DNA from: Candidatus Avigastranaerophilus faecigallinarum
GTDB lineage: Bacteria > Cyanobacteriota > Vampirovibrionia > Gastranaerophilales > Gastranaerophilaceae
Assembly: GCA_018716565.1 (NCBI GenBank)
Contig: DVJT01000173.1
Coordinates: 1-35,170 of the forward strand
Reading direction: 5' to 3'
DNA length: 35,170 nt
Both the position numbers and the translations under genes were made by a program. Under the pieces are notes generated by a model that saw only the letters and a program-made list of their open reading frames with translations, made no database searches and was not told the DNA's origin. Below are positions 1,955 through 34,808 of this stretch, one piece after another; the stretch's first letter is position 1; each line of letters starts with the position of its first letter.

Positions 1955-3031
1955 TTATATTCTGAAAGAAGTAGATAATTTCAATCTTTGATTGATAGAA
2001 GAATTATTTGTGTACTGATTAGTAGCATAAAGTTCTATTTCCAGATTATTTTTATTCTTAATTGGCTTATAAGTAAGTACAATTTCATCTTGCATATTGT
2101 TTTGAGAAACATTTCGTATAAATCTGGTTTTTAAATATAAAGAATCTGATATTTTAAATTCAGGAATAAAATACAAACTTGTATCATAATTCTGGGTATT
2201 GGAAAATTTACTCTGACCTATCTGAGCATTTAGTTTCAATCTTTTATATGTATATTCAATAAATCCACCACCAGTAATTTTATTAACAGCTTGTGCTTCA
2301 TTAGAATAATATGCACCACCTATAATAAAACTCCCCGCATTTCTTGGTAAAAATATTGAATTGGAAGATAAAATAGCACCACCAGAAGCTTCATGATTAT
2401 ATGAAGAAGAAAAGGATCCAACCGATAAGTTAAGAGAATCACCTTTATATGATATTATTGAACCAGTATTGTACGTTGATTCATTAGCTCTAACAAATAA
2501 AACTGATGGTCCATTAACATCAAATAAAAAAGTCTGTCCTAATTGTGCAGAAATTGAACTTCCTATATCAGCTGTTATTTTAGATGAATTTACAACACCC
2601 GGTATTGGGGCCATATGTCTTGTATCATTCAAAAAAGCCTGTGAAAAAGCCTTTGAACCATCCCAAATCATATTTTCTGCTTTTATCGATTGCTCTATTC
2701 TATATTGAGTTTCATTTACTTTTAATTTAAAAACTCTATCATTATTAACATCTTCTAAAGCAGAGTCATCAATTTCATCTAAATTTAGTTCAACAGAATT
2801 TGCTTCATATCTTTTTGCAACATCAATTATTGCCTCTTCTTCAAAATTATCATCTTGAATTGTTTCTGATACTTCATCTTCATTCGACTTTTCGTTTATT
2901 TCCAAAGTTTCAACATAACGACCCAAATCAATAAAACTTTTAGACTGAACATCAAGTTTTTCAATTTCTTTTGCAGAAATAGGATTAATAATAAAGTTAA
3001 ATAAGAAAATAAAAAATAATATCTTTTTCAT
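1955..3031 (-). CDS. secreted, possibly outer-membrane beta-barrel protein of unknown family
   Basis: Signal peptide MKKILFFIFLFNFIINPISA (start moved from 3070 to 3031); alternating-polarity C-terminal half ending LKLSTSFRI. Confidence 0.55.
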   Translation of the reverse strand: MKKILFFIFLFNFIINPISAKEIEKLDVQSKSFIDLGRYVETLEINEKSNEDEVSETIQDDNFEEEAIIDVAKRYEANSVELNLDEIDDSALEDVNNDRVFKLKVNETQYRIEQSIKAENMIWDGSKAFSQAFLNDTRHMAPIPGVVNSSKITADIGSSISAQLGQTFLFDVNGPSVLFVRANESTYNTGSIISYKGDSLNLSVGSFSSSYNHEASGGAILSSNSIFLPRNAGSFIIGGAYYSNEAQAVNKITGGGFIEYTYKRLKLNAQIGQSKFSNTQNYDTSLYFIPEFKISDSLYLKTRFIRNVSQNNMQDEIVLTYKPIKNKNNLEIELYATNQYTNNSSINQRLKLSTSFRI

Positions 3032-3331
3032 AATACAATTTTGAATTAAAAAAAATATTTGTTCAATCAACTAAATAAATAATATTTGACAATAGCGAAA
3101 AAAAGTATTTGAATAATATATGCAGAAATGAATAAATTTTACCTACTAAGTATATAATATATTAAGTTTTGTAAACATGCATTTGTTATGGTTATTCTTC
3201 AAGTCTGACAAGAAGTTTAAGCTTATTAAAAAGGTCTTTTTTACAAAAAAAGATATATATTTTTAAATTAACTAGCAAAAAATTTTGATAACACGGTTTA
3301 AAATAAATTGCGAATGAACACGGAGATAAAA

Positions 3332-3718
3332 ATGGCTGAAATAAATAATAATATTCAAAAATTTGGATATAACATAGAAAAAGTTGATAATAGTAAAAAT
3401 AAAACACCAGAGACACCTCATGTTGAAGTACCTGAAGGCAGTGAAGAAAAACGATATGTACCAGACACAGGAATACTTGGACGTTCACAAATAAAGAATC
3501 CAAAAGGGGCAGATGTTACAAGAAGCGTAGATGAAACAATTGCATTATGCGAAAAATATCCTCAAATATTAAATTGCGGGGATGAACTTTTTGATACTTT
3601 ATATGAACAGTTTTTAAACAATGGAATGGAACCATTTGAAGCTTATGCAAAAGCATCTATTGCAATGGAAGAATTCGTTGAGATTGGTAAAGCTCAATTG
3701 AGTCAACATCTTGATTAG
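3332..3718 (+). CDS. small hypothetical protein
   Basis: Open ORF; ATG 3332 is preceded by CGGAG at suitable spacing (track start 3308 is TTG). Confidence 0.6.
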   Translation: MAEINNNIQKFGYNIEKVDNSKNKTPETPHVEVPEGSEEKRYVPDTGILGRSQIKNPKGADVTRSVDETIALCEKYPQILNCGDELFDTLYEQFLNNGMEPFEAYAKASIAMEEFVEIGKAQLSQHLD

Positions 3719-12467: not shown

Positions 12468-14306
12468 ATGACACAAAATAATAATATTCAAACATCAAAT
12501 AATATATTTAGCTTGTTCCCACAATATACGCTGGAACAAGCTAATGTAGTGCAAAAACCTGTTTCAAAAGTGTCTGTAAATTCTTCTATCGAAAGAAAAG
12601 AAGATTCAATTGAACTTACTAAGGAAAAATCAAGTAAAGCAAAGAAAATTATTTTTGGTTCAACTCTTGCATCAACAATAATAACTGCAGGAATCGTAAG
12701 CATGTTTTTTGCGAAAGGTTTTCACGGAAGTTCATTAAAGAAACTAACAAAATTCAAAGAAAAACTGGCAAGAGAAATATCTGAAAGCAGCAGCAATAAA
12801 GCAGAAGGTATAACTCAAAAAGCAGTTCTTTATACAAAGAAAGGAACTCAAAAAGCAATAGACGGACTTGAAGCTACATCTAATTTTGCAGCAATTAAAG
12901 ACTGGACATGCGATAAAATTTTAAGATTAAACAAAGTAACTGCTAAATTTGCTGATAAATCAAAAGATTTATTCAAAAAAGTTGTAGATAAAACTTTAGG
13001 AAAAAAATATGATAAAGTTGAAGTTAAAGTAAAAGATTTAACTTCACTATTGAAGCATTATAACATTACGAATTTAGAAAATTTAGACGAAGCCCAAAAA
13101 ATAATGCCTGTAACAATCAAGGGCGAAACAAAAACATTATCAGAATGGGTCGAAAAACTTTCTCAAGAGATAAAACGTCTTGAAAGTGCTTATGATGATG
13201 GATTTAGTTTAGGCGCAAGAAAGTTAAGAGGACAAAAACGTACTAAATTATTGTCTGGAATTTCTGACAAAATAAAAGAAAAATTATTTGGCACAAAAGG
13301 CAATAAAGTTGATACAAATAATTATAGAACTTATGTAACTCAAGACGTTTCAAGTGCTGCTCAACAAGAACTAAGAGAAGAAATCTTGCGAGCAAGAAAA
13401 AAAGTTACAAACAATATTCCTGCAATATATGATGATATAAAAGGTAAAGTTAATCAGTTCTCGAATTCAATAAAATTTCAAGATACAGCTTCTTTAGAAT
13501 TCATAACAAAATTAAATCAACAACTTGATGCATTTAAGAAATGCTCAGGTGCAAGTGAAGCCGCTTCAAGAAGAAAAATTGTTGAGGAAATATCATCAAG
13601 CGTTGATGACTTTATTGAATTAATAAAGAAATCAGATTATACAGATATCGAAAAAGCAAACTTATTTGAAATTTTAAATTCAATAAAGATGTCGGCAAAA
13701 TCTTCAAGCGGAAAATCAAAAGGAGCACTTGAAGAAATAATGACAATATTAAAAGGTTTAAATAACCAAAAAATAAAAGGTACTAATACAAAAATCATTT
13801 CAGATACAGATTTTAAGGATTTTTCAAAATTATCATCAAAAATAAGCAAAGGTCTTGATAATGCTACAGAACTTGAAATGGGTGAATATTTCTTAAAACA
13901 AGCAGAACTTGAAGTTGGTTCTGCAGCTACTGACGTATTATCATTACTCTTCCCAATAGGAGCCGGTGCAATTGCAATTGCAAAAGGTGATGATAAAGAG
14001 GAAAAAGTTTCTGCAACATTAACTACATGCATTCCATTAGCAGGCAGTTTCGCAACATTTATCTACGGAACAACAAAGATGTTATCCGGAGCTAAGAACC
14101 TTATGTTTTCTCTAGTTTCTGGTATTGTTCTAGGTAAATTTGGAAACTATTGCGATAAACTATATAAAAAATACAAAGAATCAGGATCTGTAGCAAAAGT
14201 AGCAAAAGAAGAATATGATAATTTTTGGACTGATTTAACTCCTAAATATGCTCAACCTTTAAACGATAATGAAAAAATAAATAACAAAGATAAAAAATCC
14301 AAATAA
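12468..14306 (+). CDS. large membrane/coiled-coil protein of unknown function
   Basis: Long ORF 3 nt after the previous stop; N-terminal TM (IIFGSTLASTIITAGIVSMFF), coiled-coil-rich middle, C-terminal hydrophobic segments. Confidence 0.8.
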   Translation: MTQNNNIQTSNNIFSLFPQYTLEQANVVQKPVSKVSVNSSIERKEDSIELTKEKSSKAKKIIFGSTLASTIITAGIVSMFFAKGFHGSSLKKLTKFKEKLAREISESSSNKAEGITQKAVLYTKKGTQKAIDGLEATSNFAAIKDWTCDKILRLNKVTAKFADKSKDLFKKVVDKTLGKKYDKVEVKVKDLTSLLKHYNITNLENLDEAQKIMPVTIKGETKTLSEWVEKLSQEIKRLESAYDDGFSLGARKLRGQKRTKLLSGISDKIKEKLFGTKGNKVDTNNYRTYVTQDVSSAAQQELREEILRARKKVTNNIPAIYDDIKGKVNQFSNSIKFQDTASLEFITKLNQQLDAFKKCSGASEAASRRKIVEEISSSVDDFIELIKKSDYTDIEKANLFEILNSIKMSAKSSSGKSKGALEEIMTILKGLNNQKIKGTNTKIISDTDFKDFSKLSSKISKGLDNATELEMGEYFLKQAELEVGSAATDVLSLLFPIGAGAIAIAKGDDKEEKVSATLTTCIPLAGSFATFIYGTTKMLSGAKNLMFSLVSGIVLGKFGNYCDKLYKKYKESGSVAKVAKEEYDNFWTDLTPKYAQPLNDNEKINNKDKKSK

Positions 14307-16548: not shown

Positions 16549-17251
16549 GCCGACACCAATTTCATTACAATCTAATAATAGAGCAGGATTATGTCCTCAT
16601 GGACTTCCTCCTTCCGCATGCCCTATTTGTAGTGGTGGCGGAATGGCTGGTGGTGGAAGAGTAAAAGAAGCTGTAGTTTTAAAACCAATAAACTCAGGTG
16701 AATGGTCATTTATGAAATGTTACGCAGCAGGACTTGCTATGCGTGCACAAGAGGCAAGAGTTGAAAATGCAAAAACTGCTTTCGAACGTCAAATTGAGTT
16801 TGCGCAACAACTTGGGAAAAACATACAAAATATTGCGGATAAAATCAAAAATGCCATTCAGAATTTACAAAACAGTTCTCCTGTTATTATCCAAAATATT
16901 TTACAAGTAATCAATAATTCAATAATTAACCCTATATTGAACCTAATATCACAAATACCTAAATTAATTGAAAATATAGCCGAATTTCAAAAAAAGATAG
17001 GTGAAATGATTCAACAAGCTAGTGAAAAGCTAAGTGCATTATTAGGTGATATTAAAAACTTCATTGACAGAAAAATTATTGAAAACATAAAAAAACAAAT
17101 TAAAAAAATTTTCTTATTATTTACAACAGATCTAGAAGATGAAAATTATAAGAATGATGATGCTTTAGAAGTATTCAAAGCAAGAGAAATGAAAAAATAC
17201 TTGGTTAATATAATAAATAAGATTAAGAAACGGAATAAAAATGATAATTGA
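16547..17251 (+). CDS. hypothetical protein with N-terminal Cys/His motif
   Basis: TTG start 8 nt after AAGGAG; GLCPHGLPPSACPICSGGG motif, then amphipathic helical region. Confidence 0.75.
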   Translation: MPTPISLQSNNRAGLCPHGLPPSACPICSGGGMAGGGRVKEAVVLKPINSGEWSFMKCYAAGLAMRAQEARVENAKTAFERQIEFAQQLGKNIQNIADKIKNAIQNLQNSSPVIIQNILQVINNSIINPILNLISQIPKLIENIAEFQKKIGEMIQQASEKLSALLGDIKNFIDRKIIENIKKQIKKIFLLFTTDLEDENYKNDDALEVFKAREMKKYLVNIINKIKKRNKNDN

Positions 17252-18773
17252 ACCAATAAAGAATAAACAATCAGATATAAAAAGAAAGAGGAAAAAGGAA
17301 GAAAAACCGGATAAAACAATGAATAAAACTTTGCAAGGAGTTTTAATAAATAGTCATGTCAAAAATAATCAAGACACAGTCTATTCTTTTAATGACATAA
17401 AGGATTCTTTATTAATAAGTGATTCAACAAATTATTATTCTTCAAATTTAAATACAAAAAAGAGAGAAAATGAAAGTTCCTTTGATACAAAAAAAGCAAT
17501 CAAACCACTATTAATAGGCACAAGTTTAATTGTTGGCGGATGTTTTGCAATAAGTGCCATTTTGAAAAAGTCATCAAAAGCTTTATTAACAACAGCTAAC
17601 TTTGAACATTTACCTGATTTAGCTATAAATATGAATATAAAAGAAGAGCCTCAATTTGCTATATACCGGGCTATACGAGATCCAAATTTCAAAAATCTGT
17701 TCGGAGCGGCAGTTGTTTTTCTTATGAGTGGAATTACTATTGCTTGTAAAAATTTTGTAGAAGGAGCAAAAGAAGTTTGGACAAAGAAACAGTCTGCAGA
17801 TATTGAGAAAAACCTTCAAGAAAATTTAATTGAAGTTGAGACGAATGCATTTTCAGGAAAACTCAAAGTTGTAAACGATATAATGCAAAATAATGTAAAA
17901 TTTTTTGACGAAATTCTAAATAACAGAAAAGAACAAGCATCTACCCCAGAAGTTTTCTCCGGATTTTTATCCTTTAAAGGTGAAAATAAAGAAAAAGAAA
18001 CCTTACATAAAGACAATACAAGAATTAACAAAAATCTAAAATATGCCGCTCTAATCGGAGGTGTAATTGCAGGTGCTGTTATTCTTGGGAAATTAAGCAT
18101 TTCAAATTTAAAGAAAACTCTTGAATATACAAATAAATACGCAAACAATTATACAGAAAAAACTATAGATGCAATTAATGAACTCAGTAATAAGGCAGAA
18201 AAAAAAGACTTGCCCAAAATTATAGAGTTTTTTAAATCGATTTGTGCAAAACCTGATTACATAAAAGAAGTTGCGAAAAAATATAACCTTTCTGACAATG
18301 AAGTACAATCAATAATTCTTGCAGTTGAAGAATCAAAGAAGACCATATTTGCAGATGCACCGACAGCACTTGGAGGTATTCCTCAAAAAGTCCAATATTA
18401 TTGCTATATAGATGAAAATAGAGGTCACTTATACAACTGGATATTGAATCCCCAAAATAAATTTACAAAACTAATATTTAGCGCATTTACAATTTCAAGT
18501 GCAATTGGATATCTTTTCAAACAAGGAATGGATGCAATAAAAGAAGTAACAGTTATGAAGGAAAACGCCAAAACTGAACTCGATTTAAGAAAAAGACTTG
18601 TAGACGTTGAAATTGCAAACTTTAAAGCAAAAAAGGAAAGTGCTATCAATCCTCTTCTTGAAAATTTTGCAAAACACGCAAATGATGGCTCTAAAACAAA
18701 AGAAGAATTAAAACAATTGGCAGATAATATATTAATGGAAACAAAAAATGGTCCGCCATACGTATATAACTAA
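17241..18773 (+). CDS. multi-TM protein of unknown function with internal duplication
   Basis: Start overlaps preceding stop by 11 nt; about four TM segments; two similar halves. Confidence 0.8.
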   Translation: MIIEPIKNKQSDIKRKRKKEEKPDKTMNKTLQGVLINSHVKNNQDTVYSFNDIKDSLLISDSTNYYSSNLNTKKRENESSFDTKKAIKPLLIGTSLIVGGCFAISAILKKSSKALLTTANFEHLPDLAINMNIKEEPQFAIYRAIRDPNFKNLFGAAVVFLMSGITIACKNFVEGAKEVWTKKQSADIEKNLQENLIEVETNAFSGKLKVVNDIMQNNVKFFDEILNNRKEQASTPEVFSGFLSFKGENKEKETLHKDNTRINKNLKYAALIGGVIAGAVILGKLSISNLKKTLEYTNKYANNYTEKTIDAINELSNKAEKKDLPKIIEFFKSICAKPDYIKEVAKKYNLSDNEVQSIILAVEESKKTIFADAPTALGGIPQKVQYYCYIDENRGHLYNWILNPQNKFTKLIFSAFTISSAIGYLFKQGMDAIKEVTVMKENAKTELDLRKRLVDVEIANFKAKKESAINPLLENFAKHANDGSKTKEELKQLADNILMETKNGPPYVYN

Positions 18774-29988: not shown

Positions 29989-31044
29989 TTAAAGATTCTC
30001 CATTTGTATGAGATTTATAAATTCATCAACAAGCTTTTCTTCAGGTAAACGCATAATAATTTCACCTTTTTTGAAAATATAACCTTCTTTTATGCCGCCA
30101 GCTATACCATAATCAGCATGTTTAGCTTCACCAGGACCATTTACAGCGCATCCCATAACTGCAATAGTAAGAGGTTTATCAAAATTTTCCAATTTTTTTT
30201 CAACTTCTTTTGCTAATGAAATTAAATCAATTTGAGTTCTACCGCAAGTAGGACAAGAAACAAAATTTATTCCTCTTTTTCTTAATCCTAAAGATTTTAA
30301 TATTAAAAATCCTGCTTTAACTTCTTCTATAGGAGAATCAGTAAGCGAAACCCTTATAGTATCACCAATACCTTCAGCAAGTAGAGTACCCAATCCAACA
30401 GCTGATTTAATTATACCACCAGTATAAGTCCCTGCTTCAGTAACTCCAAGATGAAGCGGATAATCAACTTTATTTGCTATTAATCTATATGCTTCAATAG
30501 TTGTTAATACATCACTGGATTTTAAAGAAATTTTTATTTTGTCAAAATTATTATCTTCCAAAATTTTGATGTGCCTCATAGCACTCATAACCATCTTTTC
30601 AGCAAGAGGTATGTCCATTTGTTCAAATTCTTTTTCTAATGAACCACCATTAATACCAATTCTTATAGGAACATCATTTATTTTTGCAAGTTCAACAACT
30701 TTCTTTGTATGTTCTTCTTTACCTATATTTCCTGGATTAATTCTTAAAGCATCAATACCATTTTCTATACAACGTATTGCAAGTCGATAATCAAAATGTA
30801 TATCTGCAATTAAAGGTAAAGGTGATTTCTTTTTTATTTCCTTAACAGCTTCAGCTGCATCACGGTTAAGAATTGCAAGGCGAACCAATTCGCAGCCTTG
30901 TTCACTTAAATTGTAAATTTGTTTTAAGGTGGATTCAACATCTCTTGTATCTGTATTAGTCATTGATTGTACTGATATAGGAGCATCTCCGCCTATTTTA
31001 ACATTACCAATTTGTATTTGTTTTGAAATTCTTCTCTGTATCAT
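29989..31044 (-). CDS. ispG: 4-hydroxy-3-methylbut-2-enyl diphosphate synthase
   Basis: GGDAPISVQSMTNTDTRDV, LRINPGNIG, FVSCPTCGRTQ, MGCAVNGPGEAKHADYGIAGG. Confidence 0.98.
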   Translation of the reverse strand: MIQRRISKQIQIGNVKIGGDAPISVQSMTNTDTRDVESTLKQIYNLSEQGCELVRLAILNRDAAEAVKEIKKKSPLPLIADIHFDYRLAIRCIENGIDALRINPGNIGKEEHTKKVVELAKINDVPIRIGINGGSLEKEFEQMDIPLAEKMVMSAMRHIKILEDNNFDKIKISLKSSDVLTTIEAYRLIANKVDYPLHLGVTEAGTYTGGIIKSAVGLGTLLAEGIGDTIRVSLTDSPIEEVKAGFLILKSLGLRKRGINFVSCPTCGRTQIDLISLAKEVEKKLENFDKPLTIAVMGCAVNGPGEAKHADYGIAGGIKEGYIFKKGEIIMRLPEEKLVDEFINLIQMENL

Positions 31045-31099: not shown

Positions 31100-31852
31100 A
31101 TGAAAATTGCAATAATATCAGATATACACGGCAATATTGATGCTTTAGAAAGTGTTCTGCAGGATATAAAAAAAGAAAATTGTTCTAAAATATTATGTTT
31201 AGGTGATTTGGTAATGGCGGGTCCTGAGCCTAAAGCAACACTAAACAAGATACATGCCCTTATGCAGTCAAAAGATTTTCATATAATTCAAGGTAATACA
31301 GACAAGATGTTGTCTGTATTTTCGTTTGATACGTACAATGAAATTCTAAATACCAATGCAGTTATGGCTAGTGCATATCTTGCAGACAGTAAATTATTGA
31401 GTGATGAAGACAAGACGTTTCTAAAAAATCTTCCTGTTCAAGAAGAACTGGAATTATTTGGAATAAAAATACTAATGGTGCACGGCTCACCAAGAAAAAA
31501 TAACGAGAACATATATCCAAATCTTAAACTAGAAGAAGTTGAAGAAATGATAGAAGGTACAAATGCCGATATAATATTTTGCGGACACACACATATGCCT
31601 TGCGGATATCAAACCAATACGGAACAAACAGTCGTAAATGCTGGAAGTATAGGACGACCATTTGCTGAAAAACCTGATTCTTGCTATGTAATTATGGATA
31701 TTAATGAAAATAACTCCACATATACGATAAAACATAAATTTATAAAGTATGATGTACAATCAGCAAGTGAAAAAATATTAGCAAGAAAATTTGAAGGATG
31801 TGAAAAACTAGCCAAAATGCTTTTAAAAGCAACCTCAAGATACCCCGAATAA
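31100..31852 (+). CDS. YfcE/MJ0936-type metallophosphoesterase
   Basis: IISDIHGNIDALESVL, LGDLVMAGPEP, IQGNTD, GHTHMP, NAGSIGRP. Confidence 0.92.
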   Translation: MKIAIISDIHGNIDALESVLQDIKKENCSKILCLGDLVMAGPEPKATLNKIHALMQSKDFHIIQGNTDKMLSVFSFDTYNEILNTNAVMASAYLADSKLLSDEDKTFLKNLPVQEELELFGIKILMVHGSPRKNNENIYPNLKLEEVEEMIEGTNADIIFCGHTHMPCGYQTNTEQTVVNAGSIGRPFAEKPDSCYVIMDINENNSTYTIKHKFIKYDVQSASEKILARKFEGCEKLAKMLLKATSRYPE

Positions 31853-31946: not shown

Positions 31947-34808
31947 ATGAATACAATTACACCTCGATTAGGGAATATATCACAAAAATATAAACAAAAG
32001 AGAAATAAGAATAGAACTCTTTCCCCAAATTATCAGTCAAACAAATCAAATATAAGCTTTAAAGGCGGTCCTGCAACATTAATTTCAGCAGCAGATAAAG
32101 AAATAATGAATGTATTTTCTCAGCATTACGGAAATATTGGAGAACGATTAGGACAAAAAGTCGGGAAATTAGTTACATCATCAGAAATATTAAAAAGGAG
32201 CTCCAGATTTTCATTAGAACAAGGAGCTCGTTCTATACGAGAAAAAAAAGTCCCACAAGCTCTATTAGAAAATGTATTATTCCCATTTGTAAACTTACCA
32301 TTATATGCGGTAAGCTGGGTATTAAAAAAAGCACAAGATATACCATCATTAAAAGATAGTGCTAGAAAACTATACAACAAACCATTATTAAGAATACCGA
32401 GAAAATTAAACGAACTTGATTCGAAAACTGATATGTTAAAAGGTATCTTTGAAAAAACAGAAGATGTTGTCAAAAAATTTGCAAAAGAAAAGGGTATTAA
32501 TTCTGATGACCTACTAAAAATATTAAATAATGCTGATGACAATTCAGCATTAAAAAAGGAAGCTACTGAATATATAAAAGAAAGCTTATATAAGGTAAGT
32601 AATAAATTCTTCGACAAACATACAGGTAACTTTAATACAGCATATGAAAGACCTTTAAACAGAATAGTTACAGGTCTAATACCTGTAGCTTTTTTAGCAA
32701 ATGATGCATATAATCTTTCTGTATTATGCGGTGATAAAAAGGAAGATTCAAATAAAGAGGCCCACGAAAGAGCAAAACAAGAAATTTCAAGAGTATTAAC
32801 AACTGCATATATACAATTATTGACATTTGGCGCATTTACAAAACAAGTAAATACAATTCCTTGGTTTACACCTTTAACATCTGCATCAACAGTACTGTTC
32901 TCAGAAACTTCATCAAGAAAACGTCTCGGAAAACCAATCTTTTTCTTATCAAAAGAAAAAGCAAAAGAATACAATCGAAAAGAAGCAGAAAAGAATTTAA
33001 AAGAAAAAGATGGTTCAGAAATAGCCACAACAAAAATTGCTGCTTCAAATGAAAATAAGCCAGCACAAATAAAGAATTTATCTTTCGATATTGATAAAAA
33101 TGAGCCACAAGTCTTTACAAGTTTCAAATCAGCTTCACAGAACAACACCAGTCAAACAAATAAAGAAGAAAAAAGTAAAGAGCCCAAAAAAGCATTAATT
33201 AACTTCAATACTTTTAAAAAAGGTGTTGCGATTCTTGTCACAGCAGGATTTGCTCTAAGTTTTATAAAAAACAGTTCTTATACAAAGAATACAAAACTAG
33301 TCAAAGGCATAAAAGATCTTGGAGATAAAATAACTAAAAAAATATATAATCCATTAGCTTATAAAGATTTTGAAATTTCACAAAATGATTTTGAGAAAAT
33401 GGCGCAAAGTCTTAAGGAGGCGGGTTGTAAAGAAATTGCAGAAGGACACGAATTTATAAAAGGTAAATATGGCAGACAAACAGCAGAAGGTACAATCAAG
33501 ATGTACAAAGCTGCATTATCTTCCTCTCAAATTCCAAACATAATAAAATCAGCTATAGATAAAATTAAATCCTCGGATGCAACATTGTCAGAAAAAGAAA
33601 TTGCACAAATAAGTGACTCAATTAAAACGGCAGTTGGTCTTGAAAGAACAGCTATTGCAGAAAAAAAATATTCTAATGTAGCTAAAAAGGCAGCTGAAAT
33701 AATAAAGAACAAAAAAATAAACTTAACGTCAGAACAAATGGAAGATCTTACAAAATCCATAACAGAATCAATATCAACAAATGCAAAAGAAATGCCTATA
33801 CAAGTCGAAACAAAAATAAAACCATTTGTTGATATATTTACCCAACCATTCAAATTCATAATGTCAGCAGCAAAATTACCATATAAAATTACAAGTACGT
33901 TACTCAAAATGATTGTTTCACCGGTAGAGAAGAAAGCTGCTCAAGCTGCTTTAGGCAAAGCTGAACTTTCAAAAGTTGAACAAGGCATACATAAAGCAGT
34001 AACCGAAATTTTTGGAGAAAAAGCATCAAAAGAAGGTAAAATATCTCAAGTTATATTTGCTAATGCAATGGAACAATTAAATAGACATACAATGCCATAC
34101 AGAAAAGCAGAAGCTGCATTAAAAGAAGCAATTGAAAAAGGTGCTTCGCAAGATGAAATAATGAAGTTACAAGAAATAGCAAATAAAGCAAAACATAAAC
34201 TAATGGTTTATGTAAACACAGCAGTTGAGAAATCATTCAATGGAGTTACACAATCTAATAATAAAAACACAGAACTTGCAATGATGACAAAACTGGCATC
34301 ATCTGCCGTAACTTCTGCATTCTTAGTTGCAGATAACTATAATATGGTAATGTTAAAATCAGATGGTGAAGATAAAGAAGGCGCAAAAGAAAAAGCAAAT
34401 GAACGTATTATCCAAAGACTAAGCGCACTATTCTACCAAACAATGTTAATTAACTGGTTCAATTCAACATTTAGATCAACATATAACAGTTCATTAAAAG
34501 GTATGACTGCGGTTGCTATACCTAATACACTTACAACAGAACTATTAACAAGAACATCAATCGGTATGCCGGTTGGAAAGAAATCATATGAGGAATTACA
34601 AGCCCTTGATGAAAAAAACGAGAACAGAACAGGCATTGTTGGCAAATACTTTAAATTTATGCGATTACTTACAGGTAAAAAACCATTAAAAGACAGACTA
34701 CCTAAAGATAAAGCAGAATCAAATAAAAAACCAGATATAAACTTAAAATCAGATACGATAAAAACATTAAATACATCAACAAACTTACTTGAAAGATTTT
34801 CAAAATAA
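31947..34808 (+). CDS. large membrane-associated protein of unknown function with internal duplication
   Basis: 953-aa ORF, AAGGA Shine-Dalgarno, promoter upstream and terminator downstream; two related domains. Confidence 0.88.
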   Translation: MNTITPRLGNISQKYKQKRNKNRTLSPNYQSNKSNISFKGGPATLISAADKEIMNVFSQHYGNIGERLGQKVGKLVTSSEILKRSSRFSLEQGARSIREKKVPQALLENVLFPFVNLPLYAVSWVLKKAQDIPSLKDSARKLYNKPLLRIPRKLNELDSKTDMLKGIFEKTEDVVKKFAKEKGINSDDLLKILNNADDNSALKKEATEYIKESLYKVSNKFFDKHTGNFNTAYERPLNRIVTGLIPVAFLANDAYNLSVLCGDKKEDSNKEAHERAKQEISRVLTTAYIQLLTFGAFTKQVNTIPWFTPLTSASTVLFSETSSRKRLGKPIFFLSKEKAKEYNRKEAEKNLKEKDGSEIATTKIAASNENKPAQIKNLSFDIDKNEPQVFTSFKSASQNNTSQTNKEEKSKEPKKALINFNTFKKGVAILVTAGFALSFIKNSSYTKNTKLVKGIKDLGDKITKKIYNPLAYKDFEISQNDFEKMAQSLKEAGCKEIAEGHEFIKGKYGRQTAEGTIKMYKAALSSSQIPNIIKSAIDKIKSSDATLSEKEIAQISDSIKTAVGLERTAIAEKKYSNVAKKAAEIIKNKKINLTSEQMEDLTKSITESISTNAKEMPIQVETKIKPFVDIFTQPFKFIMSAAKLPYKITSTLLKMIVSPVEKKAAQAALGKAELSKVEQGIHKAVTEIFGEKASKEGKISQVIFANAMEQLNRHTMPYRKAEAALKEAIEKGASQDEIMKLQEIANKAKHKLMVYVNTAVEKSFNGVTQSNNKNTELAMMTKLASSAVTSAFLVADNYNMVMLKSDGEDKEGAKEKANERIIQRLSALFYQTMLINWFNSTFRSTYNSSLKGMTAVAIPNTLTTELLTRTSIGMPVGKKSYEELQALDEKNENRTGIVGKYFKFMRLLTGKKPLKDRLPKDKAESNKKPDINLKSDTIKTLNTSTNLLERFSK

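Follow-up and report, generated by a model that had tools for sequence, protein, structure and literature searches.

The window, that is, the whole 35,170-nucleotide stretch analysed, corresponds to contig 122 in a draft genome of 2.2 Mb; the close relatives that have names are MAGs of Candidatus Gastranaerophilales recovered from animal guts. The Gastranaerophilales are a widespread gut lineage related to the cyanobacteria; they are hardly cultured, and their proteomes are largely uncharacterised. We analysed a gene encoding a 953-aa protein, the parts of which are listed in Table 1. Over its entire length, the gene is under purifying selection (dN/dS 0.09-0.18). It begins 94 bases after the end of a phosphoesterase gene on the same strand; ispG/gcpE (29989-31044) is adjacent on the opposite strand, and an NADH dehydrogenase cluster is located upstream. 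The phosphoesterase gene is retained next to it at 37 loci, which belong to close relatives only, and other genera have different neighbours; hence, the phosphoesterase is not a general partner of the family and the gene order gives no hint of a substrate.

Two more large proteins of the window have no Pfam match, one of 612 aa (12468-14306) and one of 510 aa (17241-18773). Among the searched genomes, relatives of the former are confined to the same order, and the latter contains an internal SFKG. The similar look of the 612-aa protein had raised the suspicion that it is a homologue of the domain described below, which neither HMM nor profile comparison supported.

Table 1. Features of the 953-aa protein gene and its 5' neighbour (positions in the window)
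Feature	Position	Strand	Remarks
Calcineurin-like phosphoesterase gene, 5' neighbour	31100..31852	+	Pfam Metallophos_2, 4e-30
ORF encoding the two-domain protein	31947..34808	+	953 aa; one gene in own genome
N-terminal leader, aa 1-40, disordered, basic, Asn/Ser-rich	31947..32066	+	pLDDT below 50
Hydrophobic helix, aa 102-129, PF..LP motif, before copy 1	32250..32333	+	Pairs with helix 33819-33914
Domain copy 1, aa 216-347, three helices	32592..32987	+	Profile match and full-length model
Hydrophobic inter-copy helix, aa 420-442	33204..33272	+	Model and hydrophobicity
Alpha/beta inter-copy region, aa 450-621	33294..33809	+	Best-predicted part of the model; without known relative
Hydrophobic helix, aa 625-656, PF..LP motif, before copy 2	33819..33914	+	Pairs with helix 32250-32333
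Domain copy 2, aa 759-892, three helices	34221..34622	+	Profile match and full-length model

An obligate domain pair in Gastranaerophilales

The 953-aa protein certainly contains an internal duplication. Since its two copies are only ~21% identical, the proof rests on profiles, which were built from a family alignment of 62 diverse, mutually dissimilar members. When the N-terminal and C-terminal halves were compared, aa 219-349 aligned with aa 762-894 at a probability of 99.7% with a single two-residue gap. The domain-trimmed copies matched each other in hhalign at 99.8% (E 2.2e-30, 131 columns), and none of the controls, a reversed profile and ten shuffles of the columns, exceeded 0.4%. An HMM of either copy detected the other in 62/62 proteins with a median of 62-65 bits, the top score of a one-copy HMM among 1240 shuffled sequences being 10.6, and the domain model matched the own genome at exactly two places, copies 1 and 2. 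A duplicated domain had been proposed for this protein in an earlier note, and the evidence is now stronger than the original claim: both the hhalign and the cross-copy HMM scores far exceed those of the shuffles, so that the objection of self-HMM scores at background level fails. The peptides by which the copies had been marked are present (VAFLAND at 32685, SAFLVAD at 34314), but the start positions given for them are 166-185 bases early, and the units as drawn were too short at the N-terminal side, the homologous units being those of Table 1.

Between the copies, a helical linker had been suggested. Such a hydrophobic helix exists, but it is preceded by a disordered stretch (~357-420) and followed by a well-predicted alpha/beta region. 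The PF..LP helices before each copy also match each other weakly (score 18.1, reached by 0/150 shuffles, which score at most 11.7), which suggests that they probably belong to the duplicated unit and that this unit probably spans ~250 aa; column shuffling also destroys helix periodicity, so the duplication of these helices is suggestive only.

Searches of Pfam, NCBIfam, PHROGs, and PDB sequences with both the whole protein and the domain gave no match above cut-off, in agreement with the earlier view of the domain as new, and we found no publication on the family. Foldseek against the PDB and viral models returned only length-driven helical matches with a TM of ~0.1. The long helical stretch at aa 718-777 has a weak profile likeness to TIGR02302 (aProt_lowcomp) and DUF4175, with which the protein shares nothing else; membership in either was rejected at 16.2 bits versus a cut-off of 394.3 and 8.9 versus 27.3, respectively.

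The protein search gave one match in the own genome and matches in 72 of 98 relatives, all of the same order, with identities from 89% down to ~25%. In the class (194 genomes), 90 genomes had matches, 89 of them in Gastranaerophilales and the exception, G109, with a marginal single match; in the phylum (244 genomes), matches were limited to order members plus one marginal match in G337. Neither outside match (E 0.005 in G109 and 0.0024 in G337) is strong enough to be accepted. In G109, the match covers helices 2-3 only, once, and the full family model reaches E 0.03. That match lies at the C-terminus of a 914-aa protein (L243:1616-4357), which by eye has an apparent internal repeat of its own (GGRSAYGWKRS... 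and GGRAISYGKRS...).

Confident domain matches per genome are even in number: two in most, four or six in some, and 12 in G233, with about one gene per genome across most of the order. Exactly two domains occur in 74/74 non-redundant proteins. The single-copy proteins sought by the earlier note did not appear except as contig-end fragments, namely the one-domain ORFs at L101 and L102:2929-4563. A gene split into two overlapping ORFs in G165 (L244:4674-6957) was rejected as a natural fission; the break coincides with a G-run that codes for glycine and includes an unknown base, suggesting an assembly fault. Copies 1 and 2 lie on opposite sides of one branch (support 100/99, 100% of bootstrap trees), which indicates that the duplication happened once, before the family radiated. 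Both copies are under strong constraint, with a dN/dS of 0.02-0.09 versus 0.12-0.26 in the linker. The domain is thus real, ancient, obligately paired, and restricted to Gastranaerophilales, which makes it a promising candidate for cell biology that defines the lineage. It is absent from at least ten near-complete genomes belonging to the same taxonomic family, and the genera g53, g54, g57, and g58 lack the protein; hence, the family is not universally needed.

Polar residues, hydrophobic segments, and a candidate membrane plan

We scored residue conservation over 148 domain copies from 74 proteins. The conserved residues are F249, D253, N256, R275, Q278, E320, R324, and G328 in copy 1, and F792, D796, N799, R820, Q823, E865, R869, and G873 in copy 2. 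Three positions are near-invariant (D253/D796 and N256/N799 in 147/148 copies each, R324/R869 in 148/148) and offer direct targets for mutagenesis. F249, R275, Q278, E320, and G328 (numbered as in copy 1) are present in 82-92% of copies. The protein shows the hallmarks of the family, namely two copies, D-x2-N in helix 1 of each, and R in helix 3 of each. In the short paralogues (669-696 aa), the helix-3 E is absent and the R/Q pair is only partly retained, so not every family member has the whole polar set.

The full-length AlphaFold model (pLDDT 74.9, pTM 0.70) has the same succession of helices in copy 1 (231-260, 265-296, 307-327, and 336-355) and copy 2 (774-804, 810-841, 850-872, and 881-892). 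The conserved residues sit toward the ends of helices 1 and 3 and near the start of helix 2; with this placement, they would come together on a single face of each predicted bundle. Modelled alone, the C-terminal half had low confidence (pTM 0.26) and was excluded from the fold search; the difference from the full-length model fits halves that need each other, although so poor a model may be technical.

On the octanol scale, hydrophobic segments were found at 106-127, 240-261, 280-322 (two helices), 422-440, 630-653, 777-802, and 821-859. The hydrophobic 19-mers of the two halves occupy corresponding places, and one further helix lies between the halves. The pattern in the short paralogues is close to 3-1-3, e.g., 189, 236, 257 / 334 / 550, 595, 617. 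Lysine and arginine are biased toward the side of the H1-H2 and post-H3 segments in both copies of 62/62 proteins, a bias that two parallel units connected by a linker helix should show. The hydrophobicity of the protein is intermediate between the soluble and membrane controls of the window: the soluble enzymes have 0-3 borderline octanol segments, and the Nuo and FlhB proteins have far stronger ones. Its best octanol sum is -7.7, compared with -15.7 to -19.8 in the Nuo subunits, and few of its helices exceed the usual Kyte-Doolittle cut of 1.6.

The best explanation, which we hold tentatively and at somewhat below an even chance, is an integral membrane protein with pseudo-symmetry and paired polar sites. 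An ancestral unit, consisting of a hydrophobic PF..LP helix and a three-helix bundle, would have been duplicated and fused within one gene before the order diversified. The two bundles would lie in the same orientation, linked via one membrane helix that restores the orientation of the second bundle (a 3+1+3 plan), and would pack against each other. D-x2-N of helix 1, R/Q of helix 2, and E/R of helix 3 would cluster at the same bundle face, forming paired polar sites, and the most likely role of such a paired site would be to move or bind a small polar or amphipathic ligand. A membrane role of the paired domain is plausible, but several observations weigh against it. The hydrophobicity is only moderate, as given above; none of the transporter fold matches is convincing (best E 0.04, TM 0.1); the genus-dependent neighbours give no hint of a substrate; and the polar set is incomplete in the short paralogues. 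Furthermore, the additional PF..LP helices make a strict 3-1-3 topology ambiguous.

The way of building such a protein is already known, although the family is novel. SWEET/SemiSWEET and PnuC are duplications of a three-helix protodomain with a linker helix; SWEET is built in parallel, its linker helix restoring the orientation, and PnuC is another parallel case (PMC7162841). Like SWEET and PnuC, the 953-aa protein has two homologous three-helix units in one chain, ~20% identical and joined by an extra hydrophobic helix, and its units may share one orientation. In contrast, no similarity of sequence or fold to SWEET or PnuC was found with Pfam, PDB sequences, or Foldseek; its helices are less hydrophobic; and it additionally possesses a disordered leader, an alpha/beta insert exceeding 150 aa, and the PF..LP helices. 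No single-unit relative resembling SemiSWEET was found for the family. TRIC, aquaporin, and FocA are inverted-repeat membrane proteins (PMC7162841, PMC3962082). The 953-aa protein would share with them the internal duplication of a three-helix unit in the membrane, but the charge bias of its family has the same direction in both copies (62/62), which argues against an inverted arrangement. If membrane insertion holds true, the family would be an independent instance of the 3-1-3 duplication route of SWEET and PnuC.

The main rival, which we regard as unlikely though a serious contender, is a soluble or peripheral helical scaffold, in which the three-helix units, packing through hydrophobic faces, would serve as modules for protein-protein interaction and the whole protein would organise a cytoplasmic or membrane-surface assembly. 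A hydrophobicity under the usual transmembrane cut-offs, long and partly charged helices, a well-predicted and soluble-looking alpha/beta middle, and the long disordered leader and linker all agree with a scaffold. However, the hydrophobic 19-mers are repeated at matching places and exceed the soluble controls of the window, the 3-1-3 pattern is clean in the short paralogues, and the charge bias is consistent throughout the 62 proteins; these features speak against a scaffold.

An N-terminal leader shared with unrelated proteins

The leader of the 953-aa protein is closed by an ISFKG motif, of which F38, K39, and G40 are kept in most of the 62 relatives. Many unrelated proteins in these genomes also start with a leader of this type, which is basic, rich in Asn/Ser, ~15-60 aa long, and closed by [VIL][SN]F[K]G. 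Besides 31947-32066 in the window, it was observed at L163:13978-15024, L161:4847-6469, L221:275-2020 and 2362-3417, L227:11189-12724, and in L136, L147, L151, and L157, and its carriers include one phosphomannomutase-like and one HAD-like protein. Among 455 genes, those of the family included, 21 have the pattern [VISTN][STN]F[KRTGE]?G within residues 6-55, versus 3-5 in deeper windows. The SF(K)G leader may serve as a sorting signal specific to the lineage, and it may represent a second, separate finding.

In 7/7 short paralogues examined (G233, G235), a SFG-leader protein of ~160-206 aa is encoded directly upstream on the same strand, occasionally in tandem copies. These genes are located at L236:9722-10228, L237:10656-11291, L238:7777-8277, L239:7754-8263, L240:7438-8049, L241:7771-8253, and L242:6936-7571, and 5/5 of the proteins tested had no Pfam match.

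The 953-aa protein might be a membrane docking or export factor for the unrelated leader-bearing proteins of the order. We consider this improbable. The near-complete conservation of the motif in the family, its excess at residues 6-55 of other proteins over positions deeper inside, and the small upstream SFG-leader proteins of the short paralogues favour a docking factor, but the protein's own leader suggests a client as much as a machine, and near-complete genomes without the family occur in the same taxonomic family. A bolder form, in which a new order-confined membrane fold, always parallel 3-1-3, would be the receptor or translocating device for the SF(K)G leader, is slighter still in its prospects.

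It is very hard to credit that the protein is a substrate or accessory of flagellar or type III export. FlhB is encoded ~22 kb away in the window, which also contains sigma-factor genes, and the N-terminus is disordered; however, FlhA-type genes occur in all listed same-family genomes without the domain, so the presence of the domain is independent of the export apparatus and the flagellar link is removed. A phage tape-measure protein or mobile-element remnant, suggested by weak PHROG and structure matches (E 0.025 and 0.0066) that are typical of long helical proteins, is refuted in practice, with negligible residual probability, by the lack of any copy in 50,697 phage and 72,556 plasmid records, by housekeeping neighbours instead of the structural-gene neighbourhood of a tape-measure gene, and by the strong constraint on a gene that occurs about once in each genome across most of the order.

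As a minor observation on the export genes, G000 and the other genomes of the same family mostly have two or more FHIPEP (FlhA) matches. Their scores form two classes, at ~720 and ~870 bits, which may correspond to two export systems.
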